Source: Devosia aquimaris (GTDB lineage: Bacteria > Pseudomonadota > Alphaproteobacteria > Rhizobiales > Devosiaceae). From it: 64,000 nucleotides of DNA. The DNA lies in assembly GCF_020169335.1 (NCBI RefSeq), contig NZ_JAIEZN010000001.1, positions 885,426 through 949,425 on the forward strand, read 5' to 3'. The notes beneath the pieces are model-generated. The model saw only the letters and a list, made by a program, of their open reading frames with translations, was not told the origin of the DNA and made no database searches. A program made the translations under genes and the position numbers. Positions 57,244-63,360 of this stretch are shown piece after piece; within the stretch, counting starts at the first letter, position 1, and each line of letters starts with the position of its first letter.

Positions 57244-57324
57244 GTGTGGAACCTCACCATGTGGCCGTCAACGCGCCCAAGGTTGGCGTCGGGCGCGCCA
57301 TTTACAAGTCCTCGACGAGGAATT

Positions 57325-57372
57325 ATGAACGGCGTTATCTATAGCCGATTTCATTACAAAATACGCTTCTGA
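57325..57372 (+). CDS. Possible 15-residue leader peptide
   Basis: An ATG at 57325, with GAGG four bases upstream, opens a 15-codon frame (MNGVIYSRFHYKIRF) whose stop TGA overlaps the purine-rich ribosome-binding site of the small gene at 57385. The layout would allow translational coupling. It is short enough to arise by chance. Confidence 0.25.
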   Translation: MNGVIYSRFHYKIRF

Positions 57373-57384
57373 AGGGCAAGGGAC

Positions 57385-57483
57385 ATGCAGTCTCTGTACA
57401 CTGTTGCTAAGGTTGGAGCCTCGCTCGCCGCTGGTGCAGTGGTCGCGGCCGCCATGATGGCGGCCGGCGCGAACGCCCGCTAG
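57385..57483 (+). CDS. 32-residue hydrophobic small protein
   Basis: This short frame encodes MQSLYTVAKVGASLAAGAVV followed by AAAMMAAGANAR. It is preceded by GAAGGG eight bases from the ATG and a second AAGGGA. It has one lysine early, then an Ala/Gly/Val-rich stretch of about 22 residues that could cross the membrane or act as a signal peptide ending in ANA. A strong hairpin begins at its stop codon. It stands alone between the divergent glycosyltransferase gene and the aminotransferase gene. I recognise no family. The ribosome-binding site and the hairpin make it more credible than chance. Confidence 0.55.
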   Translation: MQSLYTVAKVGASLAAGAVVAAAMMAAGANAR

Positions 57484-57519
57484 CTCTTCCCGCATGGCCC
57501 CTGCCGGGCCGGGAAGAGC
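57483..57519 (+). terminator. Hairpin after the small protein gene
   Basis: GCTCTTCCCG and CGGGAAGAGC form a perfect ten-base stem whose first base is the last base of the small gene's stop codon; the 17-base interior is GC-rich and can pair further. No U-tract follows, so it may act as an mRNA stabiliser or a Rho-linked end. Confidence 0.6.
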
Positions 57520-57663
57520 CGAACACTGCGAGCGCGCCCGATGCCGGGCAATTTAACCCGATGACAATCATAATTCCGCGATAATCACATCCACATCATG
57601 TGGTGTGGCGCCCGAGCGCGTCGCGGCCGCATTCAGGTCCCCAGTTGGACCGCCGAGGAAATC

Positions 57664-58875
57664 ATGAGCGCAGACTTCCACAAGATCCGCCGTCTCCCCC
57701 CCTATGTGTTCGCCCATATCGATCCGCTCAAGGCCAAGGCCCGCGCCGAAGGCGTCGACGTGATCGACCTGGGCATGGGCAATCCGGATATGCCCACGCC
57801 TCAGCACATCGTCGAAAAGCTGCAGGAAACCGTCAAGGACGGCCGCACCCACCGCTATTCGACCTCGCGCGGCATTCCCGGCCTGCGCAAGGCCCAGGCC
57901 AGCTACTACGGCCGCCGCTTCGGCGTGAAGCTGAACCCCGATACCCAGGTCGTGGCGACGCTCGGCTCCAAGGAAGGCTTTGCCAATATGGCTTCGGCCA
58001 TCACCGCCCCCGGCGACGTGGTGCTGGTGCCCAACCCGACCTATCCCATCCACTCCTTCGGCTTCATCATGAGCGGCGGCGTCGTCCGCTCGATGCCGGC
58101 CGACCCCAATGAAGACTTTATGCGCTCGCTCGACCGGGCCGTGCGCCACTCGATCCCCAAGCCCATCGCCCTGGTGCTGAACTACCCGGCCAATCCCACG
58201 GCCTATACCGCTGACCTCGACTTCTACACCGAAGTGGTCAAGTACTGCCGTGAGCACGAGATCTTCATCCTCTCCGATCTCGCCTATTCCGAGATCTATT
58301 TCGACATCGATCCGCCGCCGTCCGTGCTGCAGGTGCCGGGCGCCATCGACATCGCGGTGGAATTCACCTCCATGTCCAAGACCTATTCCATGCCCGGCTG
58401 GCGCGTCGGCTTTGCCGTCGGCAATGAGCGCCTGATCGCCGCACTGGCGCGCGTGAAGTCCTATCTCGACTACGGTGCCTTCACGCCCATCCAGGTGGCG
58501 GCGACGGCAGCCTTGAACGGCTCGGACGACGTGGTCGACGAAGTGCGCAAGGTCTACAAGTTCCGCCGCGACGTCATGGTGGAGAGCTTTGCCCGTTCCG
58601 GCTGGGATATTCCGGTTCCCCAGGCCACCATGTTCGCCTGGGCGCCCATTCCGCCCCAGTTTGCCCACCTCGGCTCGCTCGAATTTGCCAAGCTGCTGAT
58701 CAAGGAGACCGGCGTTGGCGTCGCTCCGGGCGTCGGCTTCGGCGAATACGGCGACCAGTATATCCGCCTGGCCTTCGTGGAAAACGAGCAGCGTATCCGC
58801 CAGGCGGCGCGCAACATCAAGAAACTGCTGGGCGGCAAGACCGGCGCCGGCAACGTGGTGCCGCTGGCTCGCTGA
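57664..58875 (+). CDS. Class I/II aminotransferase, AlaC-type (glutamate-pyruvate)
   Basis: This 403-residue PLP enzyme follows the AlaC/YfdZ subgroup. The N-terminus reads IRRLPPYVFAHIDPLKAKAR. Next come DLGMGNPDMPTPQHIVEKL, the Asn of NYPANPTA near 180, the Asp/Tyr in LSDLAYSEIYFD near 208, and the PLP lysine in TSMSKTYSMPGWRVGF near 238. It probably makes alanine from pyruvate and glutamate, or acts on other neutral amino acids. GAGGAAATC precedes the ATG. It lies directly upstream of hom, a common alphaproteobacterial arrangement, but a strong hairpin separates them. Confidence 0.9.
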   Translation: MSADFHKIRRLPPYVFAHIDPLKAKARAEGVDVIDLGMGNPDMPTPQHIVEKLQETVKDGRTHRYSTSRGIPGLRKAQASYYGRRFGVKLNPDTQVVATLGSKEGFANMASAITAPGDVVLVPNPTYPIHSFGFIMSGGVVRSMPADPNEDFMRSLDRAVRHSIPKPIALVLNYPANPTAYTADLDFYTEVVKYCREHEIFILSDLAYSEIYFDIDPPPSVLQVPGAIDIAVEFTSMSKTYSMPGWRVGFAVGNERLIAALARVKSYLDYGAFTPIQVAATAALNGSDDVVDEVRKVYKFRRDVMVESFARSGWDIPVPQATMFAWAPIPPQFAHLGSLEFAKLLIKETGVGVAPGVGFGEYGDQYIRLAFVENEQRIRQAARNIKKLLGGKTGAGNVVPLAR

Positions 58876-58886
58876 TCGCACAAACT

Positions 58887-58919
58887 CGGTCCCTCTTTCC
58901 GCTGCGGGGAGGGGGACCG
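58887..58919 (+). terminator. Hairpin between the aminotransferase gene and hom
   Basis: On RNA, CGGUCCCUCUUUCC pairs with GGGGAGGGGGACCG over 14 bases including three G-U pairs, with a GCUGC loop. It starts 11 bases after the aminotransferase stop. No U-tract follows. hom is therefore likely to have its own promoter in the 58920-59003 gap, where TTGACG at 58966 is the only -35-like box I see. Confidence 0.55.
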
Positions 58920-59003
58920 CATCGCCCCTGTGCTGGGCTGACTGCGTGTCAGCACTAAACTCCTATTGACGGCTAGGCACTTTCCTATGCAGATGGCGTC
59001 ACC

Positions 59004-60512
59004 ATGAGTGATATCCAGTCTTTCCGCCAAGCTGTCGAAACCTTCATTGCCGCGCGCGGTTGGACTCCCACCCGCTTTGGCCGCACCGTCGCGGGCGATC
59101 CGCTCTTCGTGTTCGACCTGCGCGAGGGGCGCGAACCGCGCTCGGAGACCCGCACCCGCATCCTCAAGGCCATGCAGGATTTCGGCGACGGCGAAAGCCT
59201 GCCGCCGCTGCGCATTGGCGTGGCTGGTCTGGGCAATGTTGGCGCAACCCTGGTGCGCATCCTGCAGAAGGATAGCGCCGAGCTCACCAAGAAGCTCGGT
59301 CGCCAGTTGGTCGTCACCGCGGTTGCGGCGCGGTCGCGCTCTCGCGAGCGCGGCATCGACAATGCCGGTCTGGATTGGTTTGACGATCCGGTGGCGCTGG
59401 CCAAATCGGACGGCATTGATCTCTTCGTCGAACTGATCGGCGGCGAGGACGGCCCGGCCTATGCTGCGGTCAAGGCGGCTTTGGATATCGGCCGCCCGGT
59501 GGTCACCGCCAACAAGGCGTTGCTGGCCAAGCATGGCGTGGCCCTGGCGCGCCTGGCCGAAGAGTCTGGCACCCAGCTCGGCTTCGAGGCGGCCGTTGCC
59601 GGCGGCATTCCGGTGATCAAGACGCTGCGCGAGGGGCTGGGTTCAGCCCGCATCGCCAAGGTCTTCGGCATCATGAACGGCACCTGCAACTACATCCTCA
59701 CCCGCATGGGCAATGAGGACATTTCCTTTGCCGATTGTCTGCGGGACGCGCAGTCCCTGGGCTATGCCGAGGCCGACCCGACCTTTGACGTTGAAGGCTT
59801 TGACACCGCCCACAAGCTCTCGATCCTGGCGACGCTGTGCTTCGGTTACGAGATTGCGCCCGACAAGATCCGCGTCGAAGGCATTTCGCGCATCACCCAG
59901 CATGATATCCGCGTCGCTGCCGACCTGGGCTACAAGATCAAGCTGCTCGGCATTGCCCAGCGCACCGAGGACGGCATCGAGCAGCGCGTGCATCCCACCT
60001 TCGTGCCCAAGGGCAGCGCCATTGCCGGCGTCGATGGCGTGATGAATGCCGTGGCGCTTGAAACCGACCATGTGCACGAACTGCTGCTGGCCGGCCCGGG
60101 CGCCGGTGGTCCGCCGACGGCGTCTTCGGTGCTCTCGGATATTCTCGACATCGCCCGCGGCACCCGCGTACCGCCGCTGGGCGTGCCCAGCGAAGAGCTC
60201 TTGCCCTATCGCGAGGCGCCCATGCGCGCCCATGACGGCGGCTACTACATCCGCCTCAGCGCCAAGGACGTGCCCGGCGCACTGGCGGCGATTGCCACCC
60301 GCATGGGCGAGCGCTCCATCTCCATCGATTCTGTCATCCAGAGGTCGGACTTGAATGCTAAGGCCATGGCGCCCGATGGCTCGCCGACCCGCACGGTTGT
60401 GATGATCACTCAACAGACTTTAGAATCAGCTGTACGTGAATCACTTGCACAGATCGCGGCCGACGGGTTTATCGTCGGCGAACCGCAATTGATCCGGATC
60501 GAGAAGCTCTGA
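59004..60512 (+). CDS. hom: Homoserine dehydrogenase with N-terminal HTH-like domain
   Basis: This 502-residue enzyme reduces aspartate semialdehyde to homoserine, for threonine and methionine. The catalytic part starts near residue 68: NAD-binding GVAGLGNVGATL (73-84), VVTANKALLAKHG, GIMNGTCNYILTRM near 222, and SLGYAEADPTFDVEGFDTAH near 248 with the catalytic Asp/Lys region. A C-terminal ACT domain (about 415-500, YYIRLSAKDVPGALAAIATR) allows feedback control. The first 62 residues are extra compared with the usual 430-440. They read as a compact helix-turn-helix domain (ARGWTPTRFGRTVAGDP, then FVFDLREGREP). That pattern resembles small rhizobial DNA-binding proteins, so the enzyme may bind DNA. 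Confidence 0.93.
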   Translation: MSDIQSFRQAVETFIAARGWTPTRFGRTVAGDPLFVFDLREGREPRSETRTRILKAMQDFGDGESLPPLRIGVAGLGNVGATLVRILQKDSAELTKKLGRQLVVTAVAARSRSRERGIDNAGLDWFDDPVALAKSDGIDLFVELIGGEDGPAYAAVKAALDIGRPVVTANKALLAKHGVALARLAEESGTQLGFEAAVAGGIPVIKTLREGLGSARIAKVFGIMNGTCNYILTRMGNEDISFADCLRDAQSLGYAEADPTFDVEGFDTAHKLSILATLCFGYEIAPDKIRVEGISRITQHDIRVAADLGYKIKLLGIAQRTEDGIEQRVHPTFVPKGSAIAGVDGVMNAVALETDHVHELLLAGPGAGGPPTASSVLSDILDIARGTRVPPLGVPSEELLPYREAPMRAHDGGYYIRLSAKDVPGALAAIATRMGERSISIDSVIQRSDLNAKAMAPDGSPTRTVVMITQQTLESAVRESLAQIAADGFIVGEPQLIRIEKL

Positions 60513-60544
60513 CCTTCGGGGCCTGTCGCGCCCCGGGAGGACAG

Positions 60545-61531
60545 ATGAGACTCAGCAAGACCGAGCACCAGTCACGGCCCGCAAATCTGCATCGCAGCCT
60601 GACGCTCGAGCTGGTGCGTGTCACCGAGCGCGCTGCCGTTGCCGCCGCCGCCTGGCGGGGCAAGGGCGACGAAAAGGCCGCCGATGACGCGGCAGTGCTG
60701 GCCATGAAGGAAGAGCTCGACCAGGTCGGCATCTCCGGCCGTATCGTCATCGGCGAGGGCGAGCAGAACGAATGCGACAATCTCTACATCGGGCAGGCGG
60801 TCGGCGCCGGCAGCGGGCCTGAGGTCGATATTGCTGTCGATCCGCTCGAAGGCGTCACCCTCTGCGCCAAGAACCAGCCCGATTCGCTGGTGGTGCTCGC
60901 CATGGCCGAACGCGGCGGCCTGCTCAACGTCGCCCGCAATGTCTACATGCACAAGATCGCCATTGGCGCCGACTATGCCCCCGGCGTTGTGCACATCGAT
61001 GCCTCCGCAACCGATAATGTGACGGAATTGGCCAGGGCCAAGGGCGTGCCGCTGAGCGAGATCACCGCCATCGTGCTCGATCGCCCCCGCCATGCCGGAC
61101 TGATCGAGGAACTGCGCACCACAGGCGTTGCCGTCAAGCTGATCAGCGATGGCGACATTGCCGGCGTCATCCACGCGGTCAACACCAATGATACCGGCAT
61201 CGACATTTACCTCGGTTCCGGCGGCGCGCCCGAAGGCGTGCTGGCGGCGGCAGCACTGCGCTGCATCGGTGGCCAGATGCAGGGCAAGCTGATCCTCGAC
61301 ACGCCCGACAAGCGCCTCCGGGCCAAGGAAATGGGCATCGAGGACCCCAACCGCGTCTATGACGTCACCGAACTGGCGGCCGGCGACGTGCTGGTCGCAG
61401 CCACCGGCGTCACCGATGGCTCGCTGCTCGAAGGCGTCCGCATCGGCCGCAATTCGCTGGTGACCAGCACCATCGTCATGCGCTCCTGGAGCCAGACCGT
61501 CCGCTGGATCAAGGCGCAGCACGCGCGCTAG
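60545..61531 (+). CDS. glpX: Class II fructose-1,6-bisphosphatase (GlpX)
   Basis: This 328-residue enzyme dephosphorylates fructose-1,6-bisphosphate in gluconeogenesis. By alignment with E. coli GlpX the metal ligands are kept: Asp47 (KAADDAAV), Glu71 (IGEGEQNE), Asp99 and Glu102 (AVDPLEGV). The residue equal to E. coli Thr90 is Val104, since the usual LEGT reads LEGV, and the usual GEGE-DEAPMLYIGE reads GEGEQNECDNLYIGQ. These changes could affect catalysis or mark a subtype with altered substrate. It lies 32 bases after hom, with GGAGGAC before the start, and is followed by recJ. Confidence 0.88.
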   Translation: MRLSKTEHQSRPANLHRSLTLELVRVTERAAVAAAAWRGKGDEKAADDAAVLAMKEELDQVGISGRIVIGEGEQNECDNLYIGQAVGAGSGPEVDIAVDPLEGVTLCAKNQPDSLVVLAMAERGGLLNVARNVYMHKIAIGADYAPGVVHIDASATDNVTELARAKGVPLSEITAIVLDRPRHAGLIEELRTTGVAVKLISDGDIAGVIHAVNTNDTGIDIYLGSGGAPEGVLAAAALRCIGGQMQGKLILDTPDKRLRAKEMGIEDPNRVYDVTELAAGDVLVAATGVTDGSLLEGVRIGRNSLVTSTIVMRSWSQTVRWIKAQHAR

Positions 61532-61569
61532 GCCTCGACCGGGCCGTCGAAATCGCCTACCTCTCGCCC

Positions 61570-63360
61570 ATGCTGGATGCGCCGCGCCCATTTCTTGATG
61601 TTTCCCGCTCGGTCACCGGCCGGGCGTGGATTGACCGACTGGACAGCACCACCACCCGCACCGCTGGGGCCATTGCCCAGCGCATAGGCGTCTCGGAAAT
61701 CCTGGCGCGGGTTATGGCGGCGCGCGGCGTCGCCCTGGATGCGGCCGAGAGCTATCTCGAGCCCACCATAAGGGCGCTGATGCCCGATCCCTCCACGCTG
61801 ACGGCCATGGATGCCCTGGCGGACCGTCTGGCAAAGGCCATCACCGACAGCGAATCCATTGCCCTGTTCGGCGACTACGACGTTGATGGGGCCTGTTCCT
61901 GCGCCCTGATGGCCCGCTATCTCAGGCATTTCGGCATCGAGCCGCAGGTGCATATCCCGGACCGCATCTTTGAGGGCTATGGCCCCAATATCGCGGCCAT
62001 GGACAAGCTGATCGACGGCGGCGCCAGCCTCATCGTCACGCTCGACTGTGGCACCACCAGCGACAAGCCGATTGCCCATGCCCGCAGCCGCGGCGCCGAT
62101 GTGCTGGTGATCGACCACCATCTGGTCGATCATGAGCTCCCCGAGGCCACGGCACTGGTCAATCCCAATCGCCCGGACGATATCTCCGGGCTGGGCTATC
62201 TCTGCGCGGCCGGCGTCACCTTCATGACGCTCGTTGCCGTCAACCGGGCGCTGCGCCAGCGTGGCGACACCGGGCTGCCCGATCTGCTCAAGCTGCTCGA
62301 CATCGTCGCCCTGGGCACGGTCTGTGACGTGGTGCCCCTGGTCGGGCTCAACCGCGCCTTTGTCGTGCGCGGGCTCGAGGTCGCGCGCCGCGGCGACAAC
62401 AAGGGCATAGCCGCGCTGGCCCTGGCCTCGCGCATCAGCGGGCCGATCAATCCCTATCATCTGGGCTTTCTCATCGGCCCGCGCATCAATGCCGGGGGCC
62501 GCATCGGCAATGCCGCGCTGGGCACCGAACTGCTCGCCGTCGAGGACGAACATCATGCGCTCTCGATTGCGGCGCGGCTCGATGAACTCAACACCGAGCG
62601 GCAACGCATCGAGGTCGAGGCCGTCGAAGAAGCCACCGCCGTGGCGGAACTGGAGATCGGCTCCGGCGAGGGGCCTTCCGTGCTGGTTCTCGCCTCGGCC
62701 AATTGGCACCAGGGCGTGGTGGGCCTGGTCGCCGCGCGCCTGCGCGAGCGCTTCGAGCGCCCGGCCTTTGCCATAGCCCTTCACGCCGATGGAACCGGAA
62801 CGGGCTCGGGCCGCTCCATGCCGGGCGTCGATCTGGGCAGCGCCGTGCTGGCTGCGGTCGATGCCGGTATCATTGCCAAGGGCGGCGGCCACGCCATGGC
62901 CGCTGGCATCACCATCAAACCGGGCCAGCTGGGCGCCTTTCGCTCCTTTCTGTCCGATGCCCTGGCCACCGATGTCGCGGCCGCCCGCGCTGCCAGCGCG
63001 CTCAAGATCGATGCGGCACTCACCGCCCGCGGCGCCTCGCTCGATCTGGTGCGTGATCTCGAACGGGCAGGGCCATATGGCTCGGGCAATCCCGGCCCGG
63101 TGTTTGCCTTTCCCGCCCATCGCGCCAAGTTCGCCCAGGTGGTCGGCAAGGGTGGCCATGTCAGCTTCTCGCTGGTCTCCGAGGACGGCGCCAAGCTCAA
63201 GGCCATCGCCTTCCGCGCCGCCAGCACCGAGATTGGCGATGCGCTGCTGCGCGGCAATGATGCCAGCTTCCACTTCGCCGGCAGCCTGGGGATCGACCAC
63301 TACCAGGGCCGCGAACAGGTGCAGTTCCGCCTGCTCGACCTCGCTAAGCCCAAGGCCTGA
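61570..63360 (+). CDS. recJ: Single-stranded-DNA exonuclease RecJ
   Basis: This 596-residue 5'-3' exonuclease works in recombination and mismatch repair. The DHH domain shows ALFGDYDVDGACSCALMARY near 98, LDCGTTS near 158 and VLVIDHHLVDHELPEA near 178. The DHHA1 domain carries GGGHAMAAGI near 438, and an OB-fold follows to the end with FAFPAHRAKFAQVVGKGGH. Length is normal for the family. It follows glpX by 38 bases without a clear ribosome-binding site. The pairing hom-glpX-recJ is common in Hyphomicrobiales. Confidence 0.95.
   Translation: MLDAPRPFLDVSRSVTGRAWIDRLDSTTTRTAGAIAQRIGVSEILARVMAARGVALDAAESYLEPTIRALMPDPSTLTAMDALADRLAKAITDSESIALFGDYDVDGACSCALMARYLRHFGIEPQVHIPDRIFEGYGPNIAAMDKLIDGGASLIVTLDCGTTSDKPIAHARSRGADVLVIDHHLVDHELPEATALVNPNRPDDISGLGYLCAAGVTFMTLVAVNRALRQRGDTGLPDLLKLLDIVALGTVCDVVPLVGLNRAFVVRGLEVARRGDNKGIAALALASRISGPINPYHLGFLIGPRINAGGRIGNAALGTELLAVEDEHHALSIAARLDELNTERQRIEVEAVEEATAVAELEIGSGEGPSVLVLASANWHQGVVGLVAARLRERFERPAFAIALHADGTGTGSGRSMPGVDLGSAVLAAVDAGIIAKGGGHAMAAGITIKPGQLGAFRSFLSDALATDVAAARAASALKIDAALTARGASLDLVRDLERAGPYGSGNPGPVFAFPAHRAKFAQVVGKGGHVSFSLVSEDGAKLKAIAFRAASTEIGDALLRGNDASFHFAGSLGIDHYQGREQVQFRLLDLAKPKA

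Follow-up and report, generated by a model that had tools for sequence, protein, structure and literature searches.

A homoserine dehydrogenase that very probably switches off its own gene lies in a 64,000-nucleotide (nt) stretch of the Devosia aquimaris genome (the window; assembly GCF_020169335.1, contig NZ_JAIEZN010000001.1, positions 885,426 to 949,425). The open reading frame (ORF), which we call hom (59004..60512, plus strand; 502 amino acids from an ATG start), joins to the front of a biosynthetic enzyme a small domain that appears to have been captured from phage Cro, and shortly before its start codon stands a 14-bp palindrome, the predicted operator of that domain. We put at about 85% the probability that this protein is a trigger enzyme whose captured Cro-type domain represses hom through TAGG-N6-CCTA. 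Trigger enzymes themselves are already known; what is new is a class of them that would be built from phage Cro. Such enzymes are few, and how they gain their DNA-binding part has mostly been guessed. In the genomes considered here, one can see where the domain probably came from (phage cro), which enzymes took it up, the operators, and even cases of likely loss. They outline a concrete path by which a phage switch could become feedback control of metabolism.

What marks the palindrome as an operator? It reads TAGG-CACTTT-CCTA (58974..58987, no strand assigned), falls within the region 58876-59003 that a preliminary description of this DNA had proposed as the binding target, and lies between a probable −35 (TTGACG, 58966..58971, plus strand) and the start codon. 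A stretch like CTCCTATTGACGGCTAGGCnnnTTCCTATGCA is common to hom upstream regions, and TAGG-N6-CCTA itself occurs in 94 of 102 distinct ones (111 before identical regions were dropped; some may share a species), where shuffling leads one to expect 0.1; any other spacing of the same half-sites turns up at most four times. The −35 keeps a nearly fixed distance from the site, with TTGAC-N3-TAGG-N6-CCTA in 88 of the 102 regions and the N4 version in five. An extra upstream half-site, CCTAT (58962..58966, plus strand), overlaps the −35, and the full arrangement CCTA-N8-TAGG-N6-CCTA is exact in 76/102. Within the window, the hom operator is the sole TAGG-N6-CCTA (0.08 expected). A letter-free test for inverted repeats had only weak selectivity (spacers of 4, 6, and 8 were enriched, those of 2 and 10 less so, a pattern that nested palindromes give), and the N6 spacing therefore rests on the tests with TAGG and TGGG letters. 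The rest of the promoter is fainter: GCAGAT (58989..58994, plus strand; 17 nt after the −35) is a candidate weak −10 chosen by spacing, since a strict sigma-70 scan of the upstream region gave no complete promoter. It would place the start of transcription at or beside the ATG, and because it sits so near (58989-59004), the hom mRNA may be leaderless. At Rfam gathering thresholds, no RNA element was found in 57300-61600.

A further tie between domain and operator comes from other genes that carry the same domain. Among 87 other loci (one of which, L120, repeats another, L290), TAGG-Nx-CCTA peaks at N6 with 20 occurrences and TGGG-Nx-CCCA likewise peaks at N6 with 20, every other spacing from 0 to 15 giving at most one for either motif. 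Which of the two motifs a locus has goes with the domain subtype. Across 90 distinct loci, domains with xDP at positions 32-34 have 18 TAGG sites, no TGGG site, and 22 cases of neither; those with xDG[KR] have 0, 20, and 19, respectively; and the remaining subtypes have 1, 0, and 10. The Fisher value for subtype against operator letters, 3e-11, is only a guide, because the subtypes were defined once the data had been seen and many of the rows are relatives of one another. By these counts, the operator letters change with the residues that begin the recognition helix. The Devosia aquimaris domain, with DPLFVFDLR in its recognition-helix region (residues 32-40; 59097..59123, plus strand), is of the DP subtype and has the matching TAGG operator. 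Ten further stand-alone loci gave three TGGG sites (all with xDGK domains), no TAGG site, and seven of neither. By such comparative genomics, the domain family and its operator can be assigned to each other, and the two-letter switch in specificity is open to mutational testing.

The converse also holds: in the sequences compared, where the domain is absent, the site is absent. With both sites sought in the 300 nt that precede the enzyme core, neither was found before 14 domain-less hom genes of other families (0/14), the hom genes of four genomes of genus g20 that lack the domain (0/4), or 23 domain-less cysD genes of relatives (0/23). Genus g20 contains both states. A member with the domain reads CTCCTATTGACCCGATGGATTTTTCCTATTC (L075, two mismatches off), another of the same genus has the exact site (L073), and one without the domain reads CCCTATTGACCCGCTTGTCTTTTCATATTC (L320). 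In three g20 genomes without the domain (L320, L321, and L323), the half-sites look decayed and the −35 can still be read.

The domain itself (residues 1-61; 59004..59186, plus strand) is a predicted Cro-like DNA-binding domain. For residues 1-65, AlphaFold (AF2) gives a four-helix domain with a predicted local distance difference test score of 92.5 and helices at residues 3-18, 22-30, 35-40, and 47-61; the full-length model has the identical four N-terminal helices. This is the compact fold of four to five helices, with the helix-turn-helix (HTH) at helices 2 and 3, that defines the lambda-repressor-like (XRE/Cro-CI) group, and its structural neighbors in the PDB are mostly DNA-binding domains of the HipB, C-protein, P22 c2, XRE, and POU types. 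A Foldseek search against viral and PDB models gave no E below 0.001, yet the names and template-modeling scores agree, and we regard the model-based case for an XRE/Cro-type fold as strong. The preliminary description had read an HTH likeness from the letters, and the structure prediction agrees; its helical pattern did correspond to a compact helical domain, although the first helix (3-18) was missing from it.

Sequence searches are nearly silent. Residues 1-71 alone match nothing in Pfam, PHROG, or NCBIfam, and against PDB sequences they reach only chance level (E 0.16). The HTH families of Pfam and NCBIfam (HTH_3 and the like) gave no meaningful E for the hom N-terminus or for members of the two profiles we built, A1 (of the extension) and A2 (A1 enlarged), and the domain is not filed here as an HTH_3 member for want of any curated HTH sequence match; the best HTH name was LacI (E 0.3, one member), among weak LacI/Lac-repressor rows at E 0.3-1.2. 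The domain profile found nothing usable in Pfam, NCBIfam, or PDB. In PHROGs, there are weak matches: for A1, phrog_4779, a “transcriptional regulator” (best E 0.0013, 5/24 members), and for A2, the unnamed phrog_7669 (best E 8e-8, 6/22 members). Conservation speaks more clearly. Across 39 full-length homologues, 24 of 34 columns are invariant in the helix 2-4 core (residues 20-53), which on this count is better conserved than the two enzyme domains (67/135 and 92/183); over residues 1-60, the figure of 29/60 is about that of the enzyme. Sequence comparison thus confirms the extra ~61 residues as genuine coding sequence.

How widely is the fusion spread? A search with residues 1-65 finds the domain encoded in 126 of 136 Devosiaceae genomes, one per genome, mostly in frames of about 500 residues or longer and in a few shorter ones, which bears out the earlier reading of a 502-residue homoserine dehydrogenase with a real N-terminal extension. 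Named genera with the fusion are Devosia, Pelagibacterium, and Arsenicitalea. The ten family genomes without the domain comprise four, all of genus g20, with a homoserine dehydrogenase lacking it, one with a partial match to the enzyme, and five with no match. In 15 of 16 genomes from 16 other families of the order, the enzyme match begins at query positions 54-69, so the extension is missing there; the sixteenth copy is partial (from query 216) and uninformative on this point. The fusion to hom is, by these matches, confined to Devosiaceae among the families examined, and the preliminary description’s own counter-case, an extension shared by all homologues, does not hold. The domain as such goes farther: matches to A1 and A2 at E 0.001 lie in 98/396 genomes from the order and 31/290 from the class (own family included), where it can be a stand-alone protein, a tandem pair ahead of an HTH_17-like segment, or the N-terminus of another enzyme. 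Viral contigs contributed 17 loci, mostly stand-alone frames.

Stand-alone relatives, which the preliminary description had suspected from a likeness to small DNA-binding proteins, do exist, and they sit mostly where a phage Cro would. At 46 of 60 stand-alone loci (39/50 and 7/10), the domain gene lies head-to-head with a gene for an S24 (CI/LexA-like) repressor; in the other 14, an S24 gene was not found, and at no locus was it placed otherwise. One of the 60, L286, looks more like the first part of a methyltransferase-like gene that has been split. The S24 profile comes from three loci, L111 (whose gene is also that of L280), L318, and L319, which therefore match it by construction; annotated records show the S24 gene as the divergent neighbor in L318 and L319 (the domain frame of L319 is unannotated), and a phage homologue without an S24 neighbor, L316, is annotated “DNA binding protein.” The genus of the window includes one genome (G014) with an additional stand-alone copy of the NDGK type (L279:2999-3199), beside an S24 gene and with two TGGG-N6-CCCA sites. 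In the flanks examined, no S24 gene accompanies any of 116 fusion loci, nor any of 80 hom loci with flanks of up to 4 kb a side. We therefore call the fused domain “Cro-derived” and not a Cro in a switch. The likeness to Cro of the lambda-type CI/Cro switch, an XRE-fold protein, lies in the small four-helix HTH domain, in the divergent S24 gene of most stand-alone relatives, and in up to three palindromic operators in the intergenic region that those relatives share with it; the difference is that the hom domain forms the N-terminus of a 502-residue biosynthetic enzyme, has no S24 gene found nearby, and matches no curated HTH model by sequence.

The promoters point the same way. In phage and prophage relatives (L299, L305, L313, L279, L287, and others), the cro promoter is laid out like that of hom: one operator has its right half directly against the −35, and the next lies between the −35 and the start; the CCTAT half-site of hom occupies the position of the right half of the second operator in these relatives. 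The layout is most simply explained if hom acquired cro along with the promoter and operators of that gene. On a rough tree (95 rows, 61 columns; bootstrap not settled), nine hom domains group in a single clade (92/80); nearest to it stands the S24-linked stand-alone L280 (100/97) and then the viral L311 (91/81).

Homoserine dehydrogenase is not the only enzyme so equipped. The domain is fused N-terminally to CysD, the small subunit of sulfate adenylyltransferase (L112, NCBIfam 549 bits), and to CoaBC, of coenzyme A biosynthesis (L113, 394 bits). The CysD fusions fall into a near group (L112, L114-L119, L297, and L298; sampled as 9 of 14 g75 genomes with a CysD-length frame) and a far pair with a divergent domain (L257 and L294, whose identity to L112 is 65% and 62% over 378-379 columns). 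All nine near fusions have a site 2-3 nt before the start codon (five exact, four with one mismatch), and both far ones have TGGG-N6-CCCA. The CysD domains form one clade (98/88) with the viral L300 (99/79), and the far pair joins the stand-alone L292 (99/88). At least two CysD lineages thus carry the domain, and their operators, at or just ahead of the gene start, differ. The CoaBC fusions show an exact TAGG-N6-CCTA upstream (L259) and a one-mismatch site (L113), and the pair may reflect one capture or two. There is also a widespread group of fusions to a protein that, from our own reading of its sequence, we take to be methyltransferase-like (L123, L230, L233, L240, and L260-L278; 23 loci grouped by a shared NRQKYL motif, with about ten like frames besides). 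The sole member tested, L123, has no Pfam or NCBIfam match. These domains are of the DG(K/R) subtype, 5 of the 23 loci have TGGG-N6-CCCA, and the group requires five changes on a poorly resolved tree. Several also have, upstream, repeats of the TGGGCAG type, which the exact test leaves uncounted. We think it fairly likely that phage cro genes have repeatedly given rise to self-regulating enzymes in Alphaproteobacteria, having been captured several times as an N-terminus (of homoserine dehydrogenase, CysD at least twice, CoaBC, and the methyltransferase-like protein), each enzyme becoming its own feedback repressor.

How would the hom protein work? In an ancestor, cro would have arrived with its own early phage promoter and its operators and been joined in frame to hom. 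The enzyme oligomer, presumably a dimer, would offer a pair of Cro-like domains to the two half-sites, which lie roughly one turn of the helix apart; once bound, it would cover the promoter, block RNA polymerase, and repress hom, probably along with the glpX and recJ-like genes downstream, such that more enzyme would mean less hom transcription. That autoregulation takes the form of repression is suggested by the position of the site, and that the fused domain binds DNA, by its fold and its operator, which together put an enzyme and a probable DNA-binding part in one protein. The operator position and the ACT domain lead us to predict that the fused protein regulates transcription in answer to substrate or product; more speculatively, threonine could tune repression through the ACT domain. 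Hom, CysD, and CoaBC form a ready set for asking whether product level gates DNA binding. The preliminary description’s candidate, a self-regulating trigger enzyme, is supported.

Might the domain have kept its XRE fold and lost its hold on DNA, serving now for oligomerization or interaction? The epoxidase of hydroxypropylphosphonate, HppE, offers a precedent, with an N-terminal XRE-like domain on an enzyme (by structure match); its HTH-like domain is usually said to serve in this way, and we know of no operator or DNA role for it. A domain with that function alone would hardly account for an operator kept in 94/102 hom upstream regions and absent where the domain is absent (0/14 and 0/4), for a helix 2-4 core more conserved than the enzyme domains, or for a subtype that predicts the operator letters, and we consider it quite unlikely. 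Less probable still is that the hom site is used by a different regulator, either a stand-alone Cro or an S24 repressor, or reflects a conserved promoter shape, the fused domain being incidental. Phage Cro and CI presumably share such operators, and the hom site does overlap the probable promoter; against this, profile A2 finds a single domain copy in this genome, that of hom, among 16 scored candidate places of 65, an S24 gene is missing from the flanks examined at all 80 hom loci (up to 4 kb a side), the site of the CysD fusions, just before the start codon, is a different arrangement, and the site is lacking where the domain is.

Finally, the fused domain might bind its operator yet activate, or mainly regulate other genes, with hom autoregulation secondary. 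The genome (3.8 Mb) has three further TAGG-N6-CCTA sites, and one of them, TAGGACTTGGCCTA (L326:1501-1514), lies about 54 nt before a murA-like ORF, and at least seven further genomes of the genus have the identical 14-mer; this site could be a second target. The sites are sparse, though, with just four in this genome, where a reversed control pattern gives 45, and 2-16 per genome across 41 from the genus. It is the hom site that is seen to follow the domain, and its position between −35 and start fits repression. This last alternative we judge unlikely.

Our preferred reading, repression by a captured Cro-type domain, takes the enzyme part to be intact. The homoserine dehydrogenase part with its C-terminal ACT domain (residues 67-502, ACT match 414-451; 59202..60509, plus strand) is full length, with NAD-binding, catalytic, and ACT domains, and belongs to NCBIfam PRK06349, which spans residues 68-501 at 517 bits (cut-off 205); NAD_binding_3, Homoserine_dh, and ACT all exceed their Pfam cut-offs. 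The ORF is the only homoserine dehydrogenase match in the Devosia aquimaris genome, which makes activity likely, and the fused enzyme looks intact.

Set among known systems, the hom protein has partial parallels. PutA, BirA, and NadR have DNA-binding folds different from that of the hom domain. They resemble it as catalytic E. coli proteins with a DNA-binding part of their own, but they are other enzymes, and the domain described here is of phage type and is found again on unrelated enzymes. Five E. coli trigger enzymes are listed in PMC8249747, with neither homoserine dehydrogenase nor CysD nor CoaBC in the list; of the five, PutA acts as a repressor of its own putA-putP region (PMC8249747). 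BzdR likewise joins a DNA-binding domain to an enzyme domain, one like shikimate kinase, and is described in PMC3602430 as an enzyme domain turned regulator; its activity is lost, whereas hom encodes the sole, apparently intact, homoserine dehydrogenase of its genome. Among the matches listed in the open-access literature, there was no DNA-binding homoserine dehydrogenase, CysD-HTH fusion, or enzyme-Cro fusion.

A few features complete the picture. Between the Cro-like domain and the enzyme runs a variable linker (residues 62-66; 59187..59201, plus strand) with 0/9 invariant columns at 59-67. Where the domain occurs in tandem (L237, L242, L245, and L249, all from other families of the class), the copies are followed by a segment, e.g., TREAAAFLGLSPRTLDRYRVTGEGP, which we take to be HTH_17-like, and neither TAGG nor TGGG sites occur upstream of such proteins (0/5). 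The upstream neighbor of hom is a class I/II aminotransferase; downstream come a glpX-type fructose-bisphosphatase and then an ORF that, from its sequence, is presumably recJ-like.
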